Shown here: positions 8,993-46,713 of the stretch, in pieces | How positions within the stretch are numbered: position 1 is the stretch's first letter | Layout of the letters: every line of letters starts with the position of its first letter | Source of the DNA: Azoarcus sp. | GTDB lineage: Bacteria; Pseudomonadota; Gammaproteobacteria; Burkholderiales; Rhodocyclaceae | Assembly (NCBI GenBank): GCA_030604735.1 | Contig: JAUVVG010000014.1 | Span: forward strand, 1 to 64,000 | Direction of reading: 5' to 3' | Length of the DNA: 64,000 bases | Program-made: the position numbers and the translations under genes | The notes under the pieces: generated by a model | Seen by the model: the letters and a program-made list of their open reading frames with translations, nothing else | What the model was told of the DNA's origin: nothing | The model's database searches: none

Positions 8993-9277
8993 TCACTCAA
9001 TGATATCAACTCGCTCGCGCAATTCCTTTCCTGCCTTGAAATGGGGCACGTGCTTCTCCGGCACGTGCACCTTGTCTCCGGACTTCGGGTTGCGCCCGAT
9101 TCGGGGTGGCCGGTAATTCAACGAAAAGCTGCCAAAACCGCGGATTTCGATGCGATCTCCACGCGCTAGCGCGTCGGACATCGCATCGAGAACCATCTTG
9201 ACCGCGAAATCGGCATCCTTGGCGACCAACTGGGGGAATCTCGCCGCCAGTCTCGCGATCAGCTCCGATTTGGTCAT
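8993..9277 (-). CDS. ihfB: Integration host factor subunit beta
   Basis: [11 protein letters not shown]...[32 protein letters not shown]. Confidence 0.97.
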
Positions 9278-35675: not shown

Positions 35676-37465
35676 CGGTGCAGGACACACTCACGGCGAG
35701 CCTTGTTGCCCGCGCGAACCAGACACCCGACCAGCCTGCCCACTGGACTCGGAACGACGTAACGGGCGAATGGGAACCGATCAAATGGTCTGACGTACTG
35801 ACGCAGGTTCACGGCCTCGCTGCACAGGTCGTGGCGTTGGGCTTGCAACCGGGAGACCGGGTAGTGCTCGCGATGCCCACGTCGGTACCCTGGGAATACT
35901 GCCATCAGGCCATACTTGCCGCAGGCGGTATCGTGGTCGGCATCGACAGCCATGACACCGACCACAACATTCGCCACCTGCTCGAACTCACTCGTCCCAA
36001 TGCGGTGGTGCTGAGTTCAAACGCACTATGGATACGCCTGTCAGGGTTGCTGCCGAGCAAGCCCGGTGTCGTCATCATTGACGAATCATCGAACGACCGC
36101 GACGTTCTGTCCTTGACCGAGTTGCTGAGCTGCCCACCCAATGGCAAGCCATTGCCCGACGTTCGGCCGGACCATTGTGCCACGATCATCTTCACCTCGG
36201 GGAGCACCGGGCTGCCCAAGGGAATCGCCTATACACACGGGCAACTCTGCCAGGTCGCCAACGCAATTCTGGAGCGATTTCCGACCATTGACGACCACGC
36301 CCGCCTTGTCTGCTGGCTACCGCTTTCCAACCTGTTTCAACGCGTCATCAATCTGTGCGGCATGATCAGGGGCGCGCAGTCTTATTTCGTGGACGACCCT
36401 GCCCGCATTATCGAACGTTTGCCCGAAATCCAGCCCAGCCTCTTCATCGGCGTGCCGCGGTTTTACGAGAAGCTGCATGCTGGCATCTGCACCAGGCTTG
36501 CCACGGGCAACGGGTTATCCAGACACCTCGCGCAACTGGCCTGGCGGATCGGCTGCGAACACGCATCCCGACAGCGCGCAGGCAGGCCACGAGGCTGGTT
36601 GCTCGCGCGAGCCCATGCGCTCGCCGACCACGTGGTTCTGAGCCGGGTCAGAGCGCTGATGGGGCCAAACCTTCAGTTCATGGTGAGCGGATCTGCGCCC
36701 ATGCCCACCTGGCTTCTCGAGCGATTCCACGGACTCGGATGGCTTGTTCTCGAGGCCTACGGTGCAAGTGAGAATGCCCTGCCGATTGCGCTCAATACCC
36801 TGGAGGCCCATCGCTTTGGCAGTGTCGGGAAACCGTTCCGGCAGCAGGAGTTGAAGCTGGCGGAAGACGGAGAGGTGCTTGTTCGCGGACCCGCTGTATT
36901 CACCGGCTACTTTGGAAGCAACGACACCGAGTCCCCGCTGGACACCGATGGATTCCTGCACACTGGCGACCTCGGAAAGCTGGACGACGAAGGCTTTCTC
37001 TGGCTGACCGGGCGTAAATCCGAGATCTTCAAGACATCCACAGGAAGACGCATCGCACCGGCACCTGTCGAAGCCTTGCTGAAGCAAATTCCCCATGTAG
37101 AACATGCTGTCCTTTTCGGACAAGACCGCCCCTTCGTCACCGCCCTCCTCGCCCTCGACGGATCAGGGCTTCCCGAAACCGACCTCGATGACGACCGGCT
37201 CACAGCAGAAGCACTCGGACGCATCGGCGAAAAGGCTTCCAGTCTGAGCGCTCAGCTCAGCGAGCATCAGCGTCCAGCCGCGGTCCTCGTAACCCGACAG
37301 ATGTTCTCGATCGAAGGCGGCGAACTCACTGCCAACCTCAAGTTGAGGCGCAATGCGATCGCCGAACGCTATCATGAACATGTCGACGCGCTTTACACCA
37401 CCCTTGCCACAGCCAAGGCAGGTGAAGCTTCCTCAACCGCCTGCAAAGTGATCGAGGTCCCATGA
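35672..37465 (+). CDS. AMP-dependent long-chain acyl-CoA/acyl-ACP ligase
   Basis: IIFTSGSTGLPKGIAYTHGQ; LEAYGASENA; GFLHTGDLGKLDDEGFLWLTGRKSEIFKTSTGRRI. Confidence 0.92.
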   Translation: MTVQDTLTASLVARANQTPDQPAHWTRNDVTGEWEPIKWSDVLTQVHGLAAQVVALGLQPGDRVVLAMPTSVPWEYCHQAILAAGGIVVGIDSHDTDHNIRHLLELTRPNAVVLSSNALWIRLSGLLPSKPGVVIIDESSNDRDVLSLTELLSCPPNGKPLPDVRPDHCATIIFTSGSTGLPKGIAYTHGQLCQVANAILERFPTIDDHARLVCWLPLSNLFQRVINLCGMIRGAQSYFVDDPARIIERLPEIQPSLFIGVPRFYEKLHAGICTRLATGNGLSRHLAQLAWRIGCEHASRQRAGRPRGWLLARAHALADHVVLSRVRALMGPNLQFMVSGSAPMPTWLLERFHGLGWLVLEAYGASENALPIALNTLEAHRFGSVGKPFRQQELKLAEDGEVLVRGPAVFTGYFGSNDTESPLDTDGFLHTGDLGKLDDEGFLWLTGRKSEIFKTSTGRRIAPAPVEALLKQIPHVEHAVLFGQDRPFVTALLALDGSGLPETDLDDDRLTAEALGRIGEKASSLSAQLSEHQRPAAVLVTRQMFSIEGGELTANLKLRRNAIAERYHEHVDALYTTLATAKAGEASSTACKVIEVP

Positions 37466-38595
37466 GTCACTATTTCCTGACCGGCGCCACCGGTGCCGTC
37501 GGCAGCGCCATCGTGCCGCTGCTGCTCGAGGATCCAGAATGCCAGGTCAGCCTGCTGATTCGCGCCGAATCCGACGTCGCGCTGGCCAAGAGGCTGGAAG
37601 ATTTGTTCGCGTTCTGGGGCTGGGACCAGGCAGACCCAAAACGCTCGCATGTTCTTCCCCTTCGCGGCGATGCAGCAGAACCGCAGTTCGGACTTGCATC
37701 ACAGGACTACGAGGCACTCGTCTCCCGCACCACCCACATCATCCATTGTGCTGCCAGCGTCAGGATGAACTACCCACTGGAAGAAGCGAGACGCTCAGCG
37801 GTCGGGTCGGCGGAGCAGATTCTCGCCTTGGGTCGGCGCATCGCCGAACAAGGGAGTCTTCAGAAAATCGAGTTTGTGAGTACGGTCGGCATCGCCGGAA
37901 AACGCCAAGGCATCCTGCCCGAGACCTGGATCACCGAGCCACGCGAGTTCCACAACACCTACGAACAGTCGAAAGCCGAAGCCGAGATGTTGGTCAAGGC
38001 CGCCATCGAGGAGGAAGGCCTCCCGATCACGGTTCATCGCCCCAGCATGGTCATCGGCGATTCACGCACCGGAAAGATCATTCATTTCCAGATTTTCTAC
38101 TTCATCTGTGAATTTCTGTCGGGGCGTAAGACCTTTGGTCTTTATCCGGATTTTGGGGATGTGAGGCTAGATATCATCCCGGTTGACCATGTCGCACGTG
38201 CGATAGCAGAGTCTAGCTGCGACCCAAACACCGCAGGACGGATCTTCAACCTCTGCGCAGGCCCGGATCTAGCGCCCCGACTACGTGACCTAATGATCAA
38301 GGTACAGAACGTATTCAGGGCACACGGCATCGCACTACCACGAAGAATTCGGCTTCCCCACAGAGTGTTTGCTCTTCTACCCAGCCTCGCAAGCAGGTTC
38401 ACTTCCCGGAGCAGGCGAAAGGCGCTGGCCACCCTTCCGCTATATCTAGACTATCTGGCCGATCAGCAGGGTTTTGGGAACGATCTATTTGTGAAATGGC
38501 GTAATGAAACTGGCCACTTGCAGCCACAACCGGCACATTACCTCGATGCGATTCTATCCGCCTACTTAGGCGGTTCTCAACACATGAGAGACTGA
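37462..38595 (+). CDS. SDR / thioester-reductase-like (fatty acyl reductase-like) protein
   Basis: YFLTGATGAVGSAIVPLLL; IIHCAASVRMNYPLEEAR; YEQSKAEAEMLV; ATGA overlap with upstream ligase. Confidence 0.85.
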   Translation: MSHYFLTGATGAVGSAIVPLLLEDPECQVSLLIRAESDVALAKRLEDLFAFWGWDQADPKRSHVLPLRGDAAEPQFGLASQDYEALVSRTTHIIHCAASVRMNYPLEEARRSAVGSAEQILALGRRIAEQGSLQKIEFVSTVGIAGKRQGILPETWITEPREFHNTYEQSKAEAEMLVKAAIEEEGLPITVHRPSMVIGDSRTGKIIHFQIFYFICEFLSGRKTFGLYPDFGDVRLDIIPVDHVARAIAESSCDPNTAGRIFNLCAGPDLAPRLRDLMIKVQNVFRAHGIALPRRIRLPHRVFALLPSLASRFTSRSRRKALATLPLYLDYLADQQGFGNDLFVKWRNETGHLQPQPAHYLDAILSAYLGGSQHMRD

Positions 38596-38697
38596 TGCTC
38601 AATTGCCTCAACTGAAGCGTCGGATTTTTTTACACTCTGAGCTCAGAATCGACCACAAAAAACAATAAATAACTGTTATTAAAGTCTTTTTCAAGAC

Positions 38698-38712
38698 TGG
38701 CACGCTTAATGC
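38698..38712 (+). promoter_or_regulatory. Putative sigma54 (RpoN) -24/-12 promoter
   Basis: TGGCACG-CTTA-ATGC vs consensus TGGCACG-N4-TTGC with exact spacing, ~67 nt upstream of the PEP-CTERM start. Confidence 0.72.
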
Positions 38713-38778
38713 GTAGTCAAAGGCGAGGTAGCTTCGCAGGTTGCGAACTCCCAAACGCCCCCTGAAAGGAGAACAAAC

Positions 38779-39633
38779 GTGAAATCAAACATGAAAGTCT
38801 TAGTGGGTAGTATCGCTGCCGCTGGGATGCTTTTTACGGCAACCGCAGCGGTAGCCAACCCAGTCCTCACAGTCGAAACTGATTTTGGTACGCAGATTAT
38901 CGACCCGTTTTTGGGCATTGACTGGACCGACCAAGCCAGCGCTGTCGTTTCAAACCTGAATTTTGACAACAACCCGTTGAACCCTATCGTCACTGAGTAT
39001 CTTGCCTCCGCGACTGCAATCAATGCGGCGCCATTTCTCACGGGTCTTGCCTCCACCGGCGTTGGGGCACCTGCTGGTTGGTGGGAGATCACTATCAAAG
39101 CTACCATCTTTGAAACGGCGGTTTGCAACGCCTTTTCAGGCATGATCTGTACGGACGTCGATTTCTTTGCCACCGGCGGGAGCTTCGAAATCTATTTCGA
39201 CCGCGATGCGAATGCTGACAGGTCTGTTGGCTCAGGTTTCATTGATGGAATTCTCATCATGACCGGCCTCATTAACGCCGGTGCGGCGGGATCATTTGTT
39301 GGAGATGGAGTGAACGGTACTGGTGAGTTTAACTTCACGGGAATCGTTGACTGGATCGAGACTGACTCGACACTAGACGCTTACTTTACTGGCGACTTGA
39401 ACCAATCCAACGCAGTGGCAACCCTACAGCTCGGATCAGATACAACTGGTGGTTGGCAAGCGCCTACTGCATGGCTTGATTTTGGACGTGAAAACATTAA
39501 TGGGTTACTAGCCCTTCAGGCAGATGGGAATCAGGGCTTCGGATATCAACAAGTTCCGGAACCGGGCACACTTGCCTTGCTTGGACTTGGTCTATTGGGT
39601 CTTGCAGGTCGGAAACTCAGCACAAAGCGGTGA
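38779..39633 (+). CDS. PEP-CTERM sorting-domain protein
   Basis: Signal peptide; C-terminal VPEPGTLALLGLGLLGLAGRKLSTKR tripartite PEP-CTERM anchor; GTG start preceded by AAGGAG. Confidence 0.93.
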   Translation: MKSNMKVLVGSIAAAGMLFTATAAVANPVLTVETDFGTQIIDPFLGIDWTDQASAVVSNLNFDNNPLNPIVTEYLASATAINAAPFLTGLASTGVGAPAGWWEITIKATIFETAVCNAFSGMICTDVDFFATGGSFEIYFDRDANADRSVGSGFIDGILIMTGLINAGAAGSFVGDGVNGTGEFNFTGIVDWIETDSTLDAYFTGDLNQSNAVATLQLGSDTTGGWQAPTAWLDFGRENINGLLALQADGNQGFGYQQVPEPGTLALLGLGLLGLAGRKLSTKR

Positions 39634-45182: not shown

Positions 45183-45238
45183 CACGGCATTCGAGCAGGG
45201 CCGACACTGTAAAGAATTCCGACAGCTGATCTTGCCCC

Positions 45239-46023: not shown

Positions 46024-46713
46024 TCACTCCGATTGGGACGCGACGAGTTGCCGAGACACAATCACGACATCCGGCAGTTCGCGAACGGCCGTTACGGCCT
46101 CGACCAGCGTTGCCCGGTCATCCACCGTCAGGGTGGACAGGTCGCCGTCTCCAAAATACACCAACGCCTTCAAAGCCTCACTCGGCTGGAAATTCGAGCC
46201 GAATAGTTCTCGCGCAGCTCCCAGACCCGCAGCGAGATTCACACCGGCCCGCACCATTGCCGCAATATCACGATAGTCCTTCGCTTCTGCTCTCTGCAGC
46301 ACGACCTTGACCTTGGTCGCCATCAAGTCATCGAGCGACGCGACTTGAAGCACTCCGTCATCGGTGCGGTCAGGCTCCCCAACACGGCCGAACCCAATAT
46401 TGCCAAAGAAGGATAGTTTGACGTGAGTGTGTTCAAAATCCCCATAAGGAATCAACACGCTCAGCGTATCGCGACGATCCTGCAGCACGGTTGCTTGACC
46501 CAATACCGGAAAGGCCCACTCAATATGCTCTCGGTCGAGCGGTTTCTCGCAGAAGAAATCGAAATCGACCGATGGCCTGTGACCCAGTCGTAGCGCAATG
46601 GCAGTGCCCCCGTAAAGTACGAAACCCAGATCCAAGGCAGGAGCAAGCTCGGGCCACAAACGCCGTTGCGCAGGCGGCAGGATGTCAAGACACGGAGTAA
46701 AGGCGCCGCTCAC
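46024..46713 (-). CDS. AbiEii/AbiGii-family nucleotidyltransferase toxin-like protein
   Basis: GFVLYGGTAIALRLGHRPSVDFDFFCEKPLD nucleotidyltransferase motif; ASLDDLMATKVKVVLQRAEAKDYRDIAAMV. Confidence 0.88.
   Translation of the reverse strand: MSGAFTPCLDILPPAQRRLWPELAPALDLGFVLYGGTAIALRLGHRPSVDFDFFCEKPLDREHIEWAFPVLGQATVLQDRRDTLSVLIPYGDFEHTHVKLSFFGNIGFGRVGEPDRTDDGVLQVASLDDLMATKVKVVLQRAEAKDYRDIAAMVRAGVNLAAGLGAARELFGSNFQPSEALKALVYFGDGDLSTLTVDDRATLVEAVTAVRELPDVVIVSRQLVASQSE

Follow-up and report, generated by a model that had tools for sequence, protein, structure and literature searches.

The segment at 38618-38713 of the window (the whole 64,000-nt stretch of DNA that was analysed) is predicted, with very high confidence, to be a PrsR-activated sigma54 promoter of pepA, the gene for a flocculation-associated PEP-CTERM protein. 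Because its spacing matches published values, at least two other PEP-CTERM genes of the same genome carry such modules, and an RpoN-dependent start is known in Aquincola, this promoter adds a member to a regulon already described, and a floc-related surface-protein gene of this organism is placed in the PrsK/PrsR/RpoN regulon with good confidence. What is new here concerns the modules at large: the spacing between box and promoter is quantised at helical turns, and matches to the IHF consensus are enriched at one set place within the spacer.

The predicted sigma54 promoter and PrsR box upstream of pepA

The preliminary description of this DNA had placed a near-consensus sigma54 site with exact -24/-12 spacing directly upstream of the PEP-CTERM gene, and the site is found at that position. 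The 16-nt -24/-12 element TGGCACGCTTAATGCG (38698..38713, plus strand) ends 65 nt before a GTG start codon, and TGGCACGCTTAATGC (38698-38712), for which the distance to the gene start is 66 nt, has one mismatch to TGGCAC-N5-TTGC, with GG and GC separated by the 10 nt of sigma54 promoters. The -12 half is imperfect (ATGCG as against TTGCT), and the base following GC is G where A or T is preferred, which counts against the reading. The further claim that no other plus-strand TGGCAC has correct -12 spacing held up, as this is the sole plus-strand TGGCAC-N7-GC in the window; the minus strand has two, at 1795 and 1934. In a weighted-consensus scan of both strands, with weights that we set from the general sigma54 consensus, the pepA promoter ranks first in the window. 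Nevertheless, the match by itself is not significant, since chance alone gives an expected 1.75 equally good sites per 64 kb in simulations that keep the dinucleotide composition, and judging the promoter on match quality alone was rejected for this reason; sites with up to two mismatches likewise number 80 in the window versus 73.7 expected from shuffling. Its significance comes from its location, 66 nt ahead of pepA and phased with a PrsR box. Provided that the promoter is used, the start previously predicted near 38724 is correct, with +1 at 38724 on the plus strand when counted from the C of the -12 GC.

The PrsR box is the part overlooked in the preliminary description, and it makes the promoter reading convincing. 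According to Haft et al. 2006 (PMC1569441), the control region of proteobacterial PEP-CTERM genes pairs two elements: motif 1, proposed as the site for PrsR, is 17 nt long with TTTACA at its end, and motif 2 is a sigma54 element, with a spacer of 62.8 +/- 10.6 nt between them and a distance of 71 +/- 38 nt from motif 2 to the start codon. The box CGTCGGATTTTTTTACA (38618..38634, plus strand) matches motif 1 (consensus TGTCGN6TTTACA) with a single mismatch, a C in place of the first T, and is followed by a spacer of 63 nt (38635..38697, plus strand), within the range of 32-92 nt for motif 1 before the sigma54 motif and in the modal helical-phase class; for pepA the two distances are thus 63 nt and 65 nt. 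The main spacing peak spans five positions, and the chance that any of them would hold a box with no more than one mismatch is about 2e-5 at the base composition of the window, and 6e-5 at 60% A+T. The same box motif occurs upstream of other genes of this genome and of the pepA homologues of relatives, where the box-promoter pair recurs, in most cases 62-64 or 72-73 nt apart and once each at 86 and 98. Judging from this motif, PrsR would occupy the box at 38618-38634.

Two further exact matches to the PrsR box in the window, at 37381 on the plus strand (inside a coding region) and 45208 on the minus strand (between converging genes), were rejected as modules, as neither has a sigma54 site in phase. 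The latter match, TGTCGGAATTCTTTACA (45208-45224), lies between the convergent ends of the gene for a PEP-CTERM/exosortase-system-associated acyltransferase (TIGR03694; 44382..45182, plus strand), a neighbour of pepA, and the next gene, and is perhaps a relic or a chance occurrence; when the idea of a relic of a second PEP-CTERM gene was compared with a same-genus relative, the region proved to be rearranged there.

The gene itself (38779..39633, plus strand) is preceded by a Shine-Dalgarno sequence, AAAGGAG (38765..38771, plus strand), 7 nt before the GTG start codon, and encodes a protein of 284 aa with a signal-like N-terminus and the tail VPEPGTLALLGLGLLGLAGRK. The product scores 108.4 bits against NF033554 (cut-off 80) and 33.2 bits against PF07589, the PEP-CTERM tail family, again over the cut-off. 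Upstream, a thioester-reductase-like gene (37462..38595, plus strand) has its stop 22 nt before the PrsR box. The surrounding cluster, at 32.8-45.2 kb, includes genes for a WbuX-like amidotransferase, an acyl ligase, the thioester reductase, a glycosyltransferase, two LolCE-like permeases and the exosortase-associated acyltransferase. In the relative G001, several genes of this cluster are retained but rearranged, and a second acyltransferase-PEP-CTERM pair comes with a PrsR module of its own, the spacer of which is 74 nt. Beyond the cluster, at 46024-46713 on the minus strand, an AbiEii-type nucleotidyltransferase gene (type IV toxin-antitoxin family) adjoins a small gene.

Helical phasing and IHF-like sites in PrsR modules

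To place the pepA spacer among others, the GTDB genome collection was scanned for exact TGTCGN6TTTACA followed by TGGCAYN6TGCT at spacers of 31-91 nt, and 80 modules were listed, from 80 genome records with one contig each and with no two spacers more than 80% identical. Among these listed modules, the spacers fall into groups at 43 (5 sites), 49-53 (14), 61-65 (38), 73-76 (13) and 81-87 nt (10), while spacings such as 54-60 and 66-72 are empty; the best period is 10.75, with a resultant length of 0.81 compared with a maximum of 0.41 in 5000 jittered sets. A second search, in 300 relatives, was positive in 86 and gave no match with a reversed control. The 150 sites listed from these relatives, which may share a few with the first set (for example that of G001), form groups with means of 52.2, 62.8, 73.9, 84.4 and 96.1, again with empty gaps. 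Overall, with spacings sampled up to 97, the classes lie at approximately 43, 52, 63, 74, 84 and 96 nt with almost nothing between, and the pepA spacer of 63 is the modal value of the main peak. Several spacing groups coexist in single genomes, so the pattern is not accounted for by descent from one promoter; G206, for instance, has nine sites with spacers of 53, 65, 73, 74, 84, 85, 86, 88 and 97 by their listed coordinates. The sharpness of the phasing may be exaggerated, since exact-match searches favour the strongest modules, and spacings of 98 and 107 in individual promoters of PepA-family homologues hint that the phase rule relaxes with distance.

The spacers also share an internal element. 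Of the 80 spacers, 16 hold the exact IHF consensus WATCAANNNNTTR and 47 hold it with at most one mismatch; dinucleotide shuffles predict 0.6 and 11, respectively. The main position of the element is -32 from TGG on the minus strand, with 19 sites of at most one mismatch, whereas no position exceeded 4 in 300 shuffled sets; a second position, -19 on the plus strand, has 11 matches. When the columns of the 61-65 group were analysed without assuming IHF, the pattern AAA...TTGATA emerged at -31 to -20, identical to the opposite-strand reading of the IHF site, with several columns above and others just under the shuffled 95% level (0.28 bits). Thirty modules from relatives have the same main IHF position. 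In the pepA spacer, a candidate IHF-like site, TAACAGTTATTTA (38666..38678, minus strand), sits at the enriched -32 position as a weak copy with two mismatches to the consensus; two-mismatch matches occur in about 50 of 80 shuffled spacers, so this match is no better than chance and a role of IHF in this copy is no more than conceivable; a candidate partner is encoded by the IHF beta subunit gene ihfB (8993..9277, minus strand). No conserved spacer element specific to pepA was found.

From these data, it is likely that PrsR-regulon promoters of Proteobacteria keep a strict helical phase, with box and promoter about 4, 5, 6, 7, 8 or 9 turns apart and almost never at half turns, and often carry an IHF site at a fixed position. 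We found no report of quantised spacing or a fixed-position IHF site for PrsR/PEP-CTERM promoters in the open literature, and one may have escaped us. If true, the phasing would let the PrsR regulon be recognised in any genome and would point to a rigid looped complex, not a flexible tether. Such a rule would turn the loose published spacing into a sharp criterion, by which PrsR targets, including genes other than those for PEP-CTERM proteins, could be called from sequence, and would open simple spacer-length experiments on the working of a natural enhancer loop.

Regulators encoded in this genome and rival explanations

The genes prsT-prsR-prsK-epsB2 follow one another on the same contig (C37:64363-72118, approximately), 0.4 kb past the end of the window. 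All score over their cut-offs, at 746 bits for PrsR, 696 for PrsK, 910 for PrsT and 527 for EpsB2, an XrtA-linked sugar transferase, so that prsR, prsK and prsT, the three companion genes of the Haft module, are all in the genome over curated cut-offs. PrsR has receiver, AAA+ and Fis-type domains, and GAFTGA is readable in its sequence. The genome has one exosortase, encoded away from the pepA region. The preliminary description had pointed to the proposal that PrsK/PrsR with RpoN controls many PEP-CTERM genes; for pepA, this is supported by the box at the published spacing, the identity of PepA, prsR and prsK on the same contig, the RpoN dependence in Aquincola, and the PrsK/PrsR dependence reported in Zoogloea.

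Neither TIGR02395 nor PF04552 found rpoN in this draft assembly, which is a weakness of the promoter reading, and the same-genus relative G001 has no canonical rpoN either. In G007 the gene order is recA-recX-lptB-rpoN-hpf; G001 has recA-recX-lptB, its contig stopping within lptB, so the absence there is a contig break. No protein of this genome reaches the cut-off for lptB, and the absence of rpoN here is most likely due to a gap in the assembly and not to loss of the gene. Assembly of recX-lptB-rpoN seems difficult in this genus, as this genome lacks both rpoN and lptB and the G001 contig breaks inside lptB. G001 (L211:1723-3030) and G002 (L214:1313-2554) encode proteins of 410-435 aa that combine a divergent sigma54 DNA-binding-like region with a GIY-YIG nuclease-like domain, both domains of the L211 protein reaching Pfam cut-offs and the G002 copy lying beside an IS30-like transposase. 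The small GIY-YIG protein of relatives that matches the sigma54 DNA-binding model was rejected as a substitute sigma factor, at 19.8 bits to TIGR02395 with a cut-off of 277.

Three other explanations were weighed. A real sigma54 promoter driven mainly by another NtrC-type activator is very unlikely: approximately ten other sigma54 activators are encoded in the genome, so the identity of the activator has to be inferred from the box, which has one mismatch, but that box is a motif with a phylogenetic profile matching PrsR (Haft et al. 2006, PMC1569441), prsR and prsK are present with high scores, and pepA of Zoogloea is reported as PrsK/PrsR-dependent (as cited in PMC9012009). Smaller still is the chance that TGGCAC is a look-alike by chance, with pepA transcripts coming from a sigma70 promoter or, through read-through, from the upstream operon (33-38.6 kb). 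Such a look-alike would accord with the 1.75 equal sites per 64 kb, and no terminator turned up in the interval separating the upstream gene from pepA, so some read-through into pepA may occur; against this stand the PrsR box in phase, the conservation of the module in the pepA promoters of relatives, the published RpoN-dependent start of the orthologue, and the lack of any plus-strand sigma70-like site at 38580-38779, from the upstream gene to the pepA start codon.

Least probable of all is that the lineage has lost rpoN and the promoter is a relic out of use. Missing rpoN in this assembly and in G001 would fit such a loss, yet the G001 case is the contig break inside lptB, lptB is below the cut-off here too and the same stretch is probably missing, some ten sigma54 activators are still encoded, and the GAFTGA loop of PrsR is intact.

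Under the preferred reading, a PrsR-activated sigma54 promoter, the membrane kinase PrsK would signal and phosphorylated PrsR, an NtrC-type activator, would bind 38618-38634, while RNA polymerase with RpoN, positioned about six helical turns downstream of the box, would form a waiting closed complex on TGGCACGCTTAATGC. The A+T-rich 63-bp spacer would set box and promoter on a fixed relative face of the helix, so that a short loop, probably aided by IHF or by intrinsic bending of the spacer, would let PrsR reach sigma54 and open the promoter. Transcription from about 38724 would then lead to the exported protein PepA, which would hold exopolysaccharide to cells in flocs. For this organism, we infer the binding of PrsR to its box, the presence of RpoN, the looping geometry and any role of IHF in the pepA copy.

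Comparison with known systems and other modules of this genome

The pepA region agrees with the module of Haft et al. (PMC1569441) in the two motifs and their order, the spacing, the start distance, the single-gene unit before a PEP-CTERM gene, and the presence of prsK-prsR-prsT; for the spacing, those authors give only the mean with its s.d., and their section on the module leaves the quantised phase and fixed IHF-type site described here unmentioned. In Aquincola tertiaricarbonis RN12 (PMC9850573), the mapped start of pepA has TGGCAC at -24 and is RpoN1-dependent, and the similarity extends to the PEP-CTERM gene itself, a predicted upstream enhancer, and prsK-prsR with epsB2. However, pepA lies upstream of prsT in RN12 and approximately 25 kb from it here, where it is instead clustered with the acyl ligase, thioester reductase, LolCE-like permeases and exosortase-associated acyltransferase. 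PrsK/PrsR control of pepA and the floc phenotype have been reported for Zoogloea (as cited in PMC9012009).

For the sigma54 enhancers of Vibrio qrr genes and synthetic NtrC enhancers, whole-turn changes in spacing are tolerated and half turns are not (PMC4740811). Those enhancers involve another activator and other genes, and unlike them, PrsR modules have spacings that fall into discrete classes, both within a genome and among the classes of Proteobacteria. Help from IHF is general for sigma54 promoters (PMC7057263), and the nif promoters with NifA and IHF likewise combine an upstream activator site, an IHF-assisted loop and a -24/-12 promoter, but differ in the activator, box sequence and target genes.

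Within this 4.06 Mb genome, the strict TTTACA...TGGCAC module has one match, pepA, and its reversed control has one as well. Relaxing the pattern (GTCG-N7-TTACA, spacer of 31-91, TGG-N10-GC) gave 7 matches and none for its reversed control; three of the 7 precede PEP-CTERM genes, namely pepA (spacer 63) and those on C67 (64) and C97 (84), so that at least two PEP-CTERM genes besides pepA carry the module. The matches at C74:109077, which reads as coding sequence, and C72:4520, with the promoter half TGGGGCAAGGGGGGC, look like chance. At C99:176015-176111, a PrsR-like module with a spacer of 66 nt and a weaker -12 element precedes an ORF of 180 aa that has an exported-looking N-terminus and no PEP-CTERM tail. 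A full module of PrsR box, IHF-like site with one mismatch and sigma54 promoter, with a spacer of 62 nt, is located at C74:98433-98525 (minus strand); downstream are short ORFs, one of 58 aa without family matches, and no recognisable PEP-CTERM gene, and expression of a small protein or small RNA could depend on this module.
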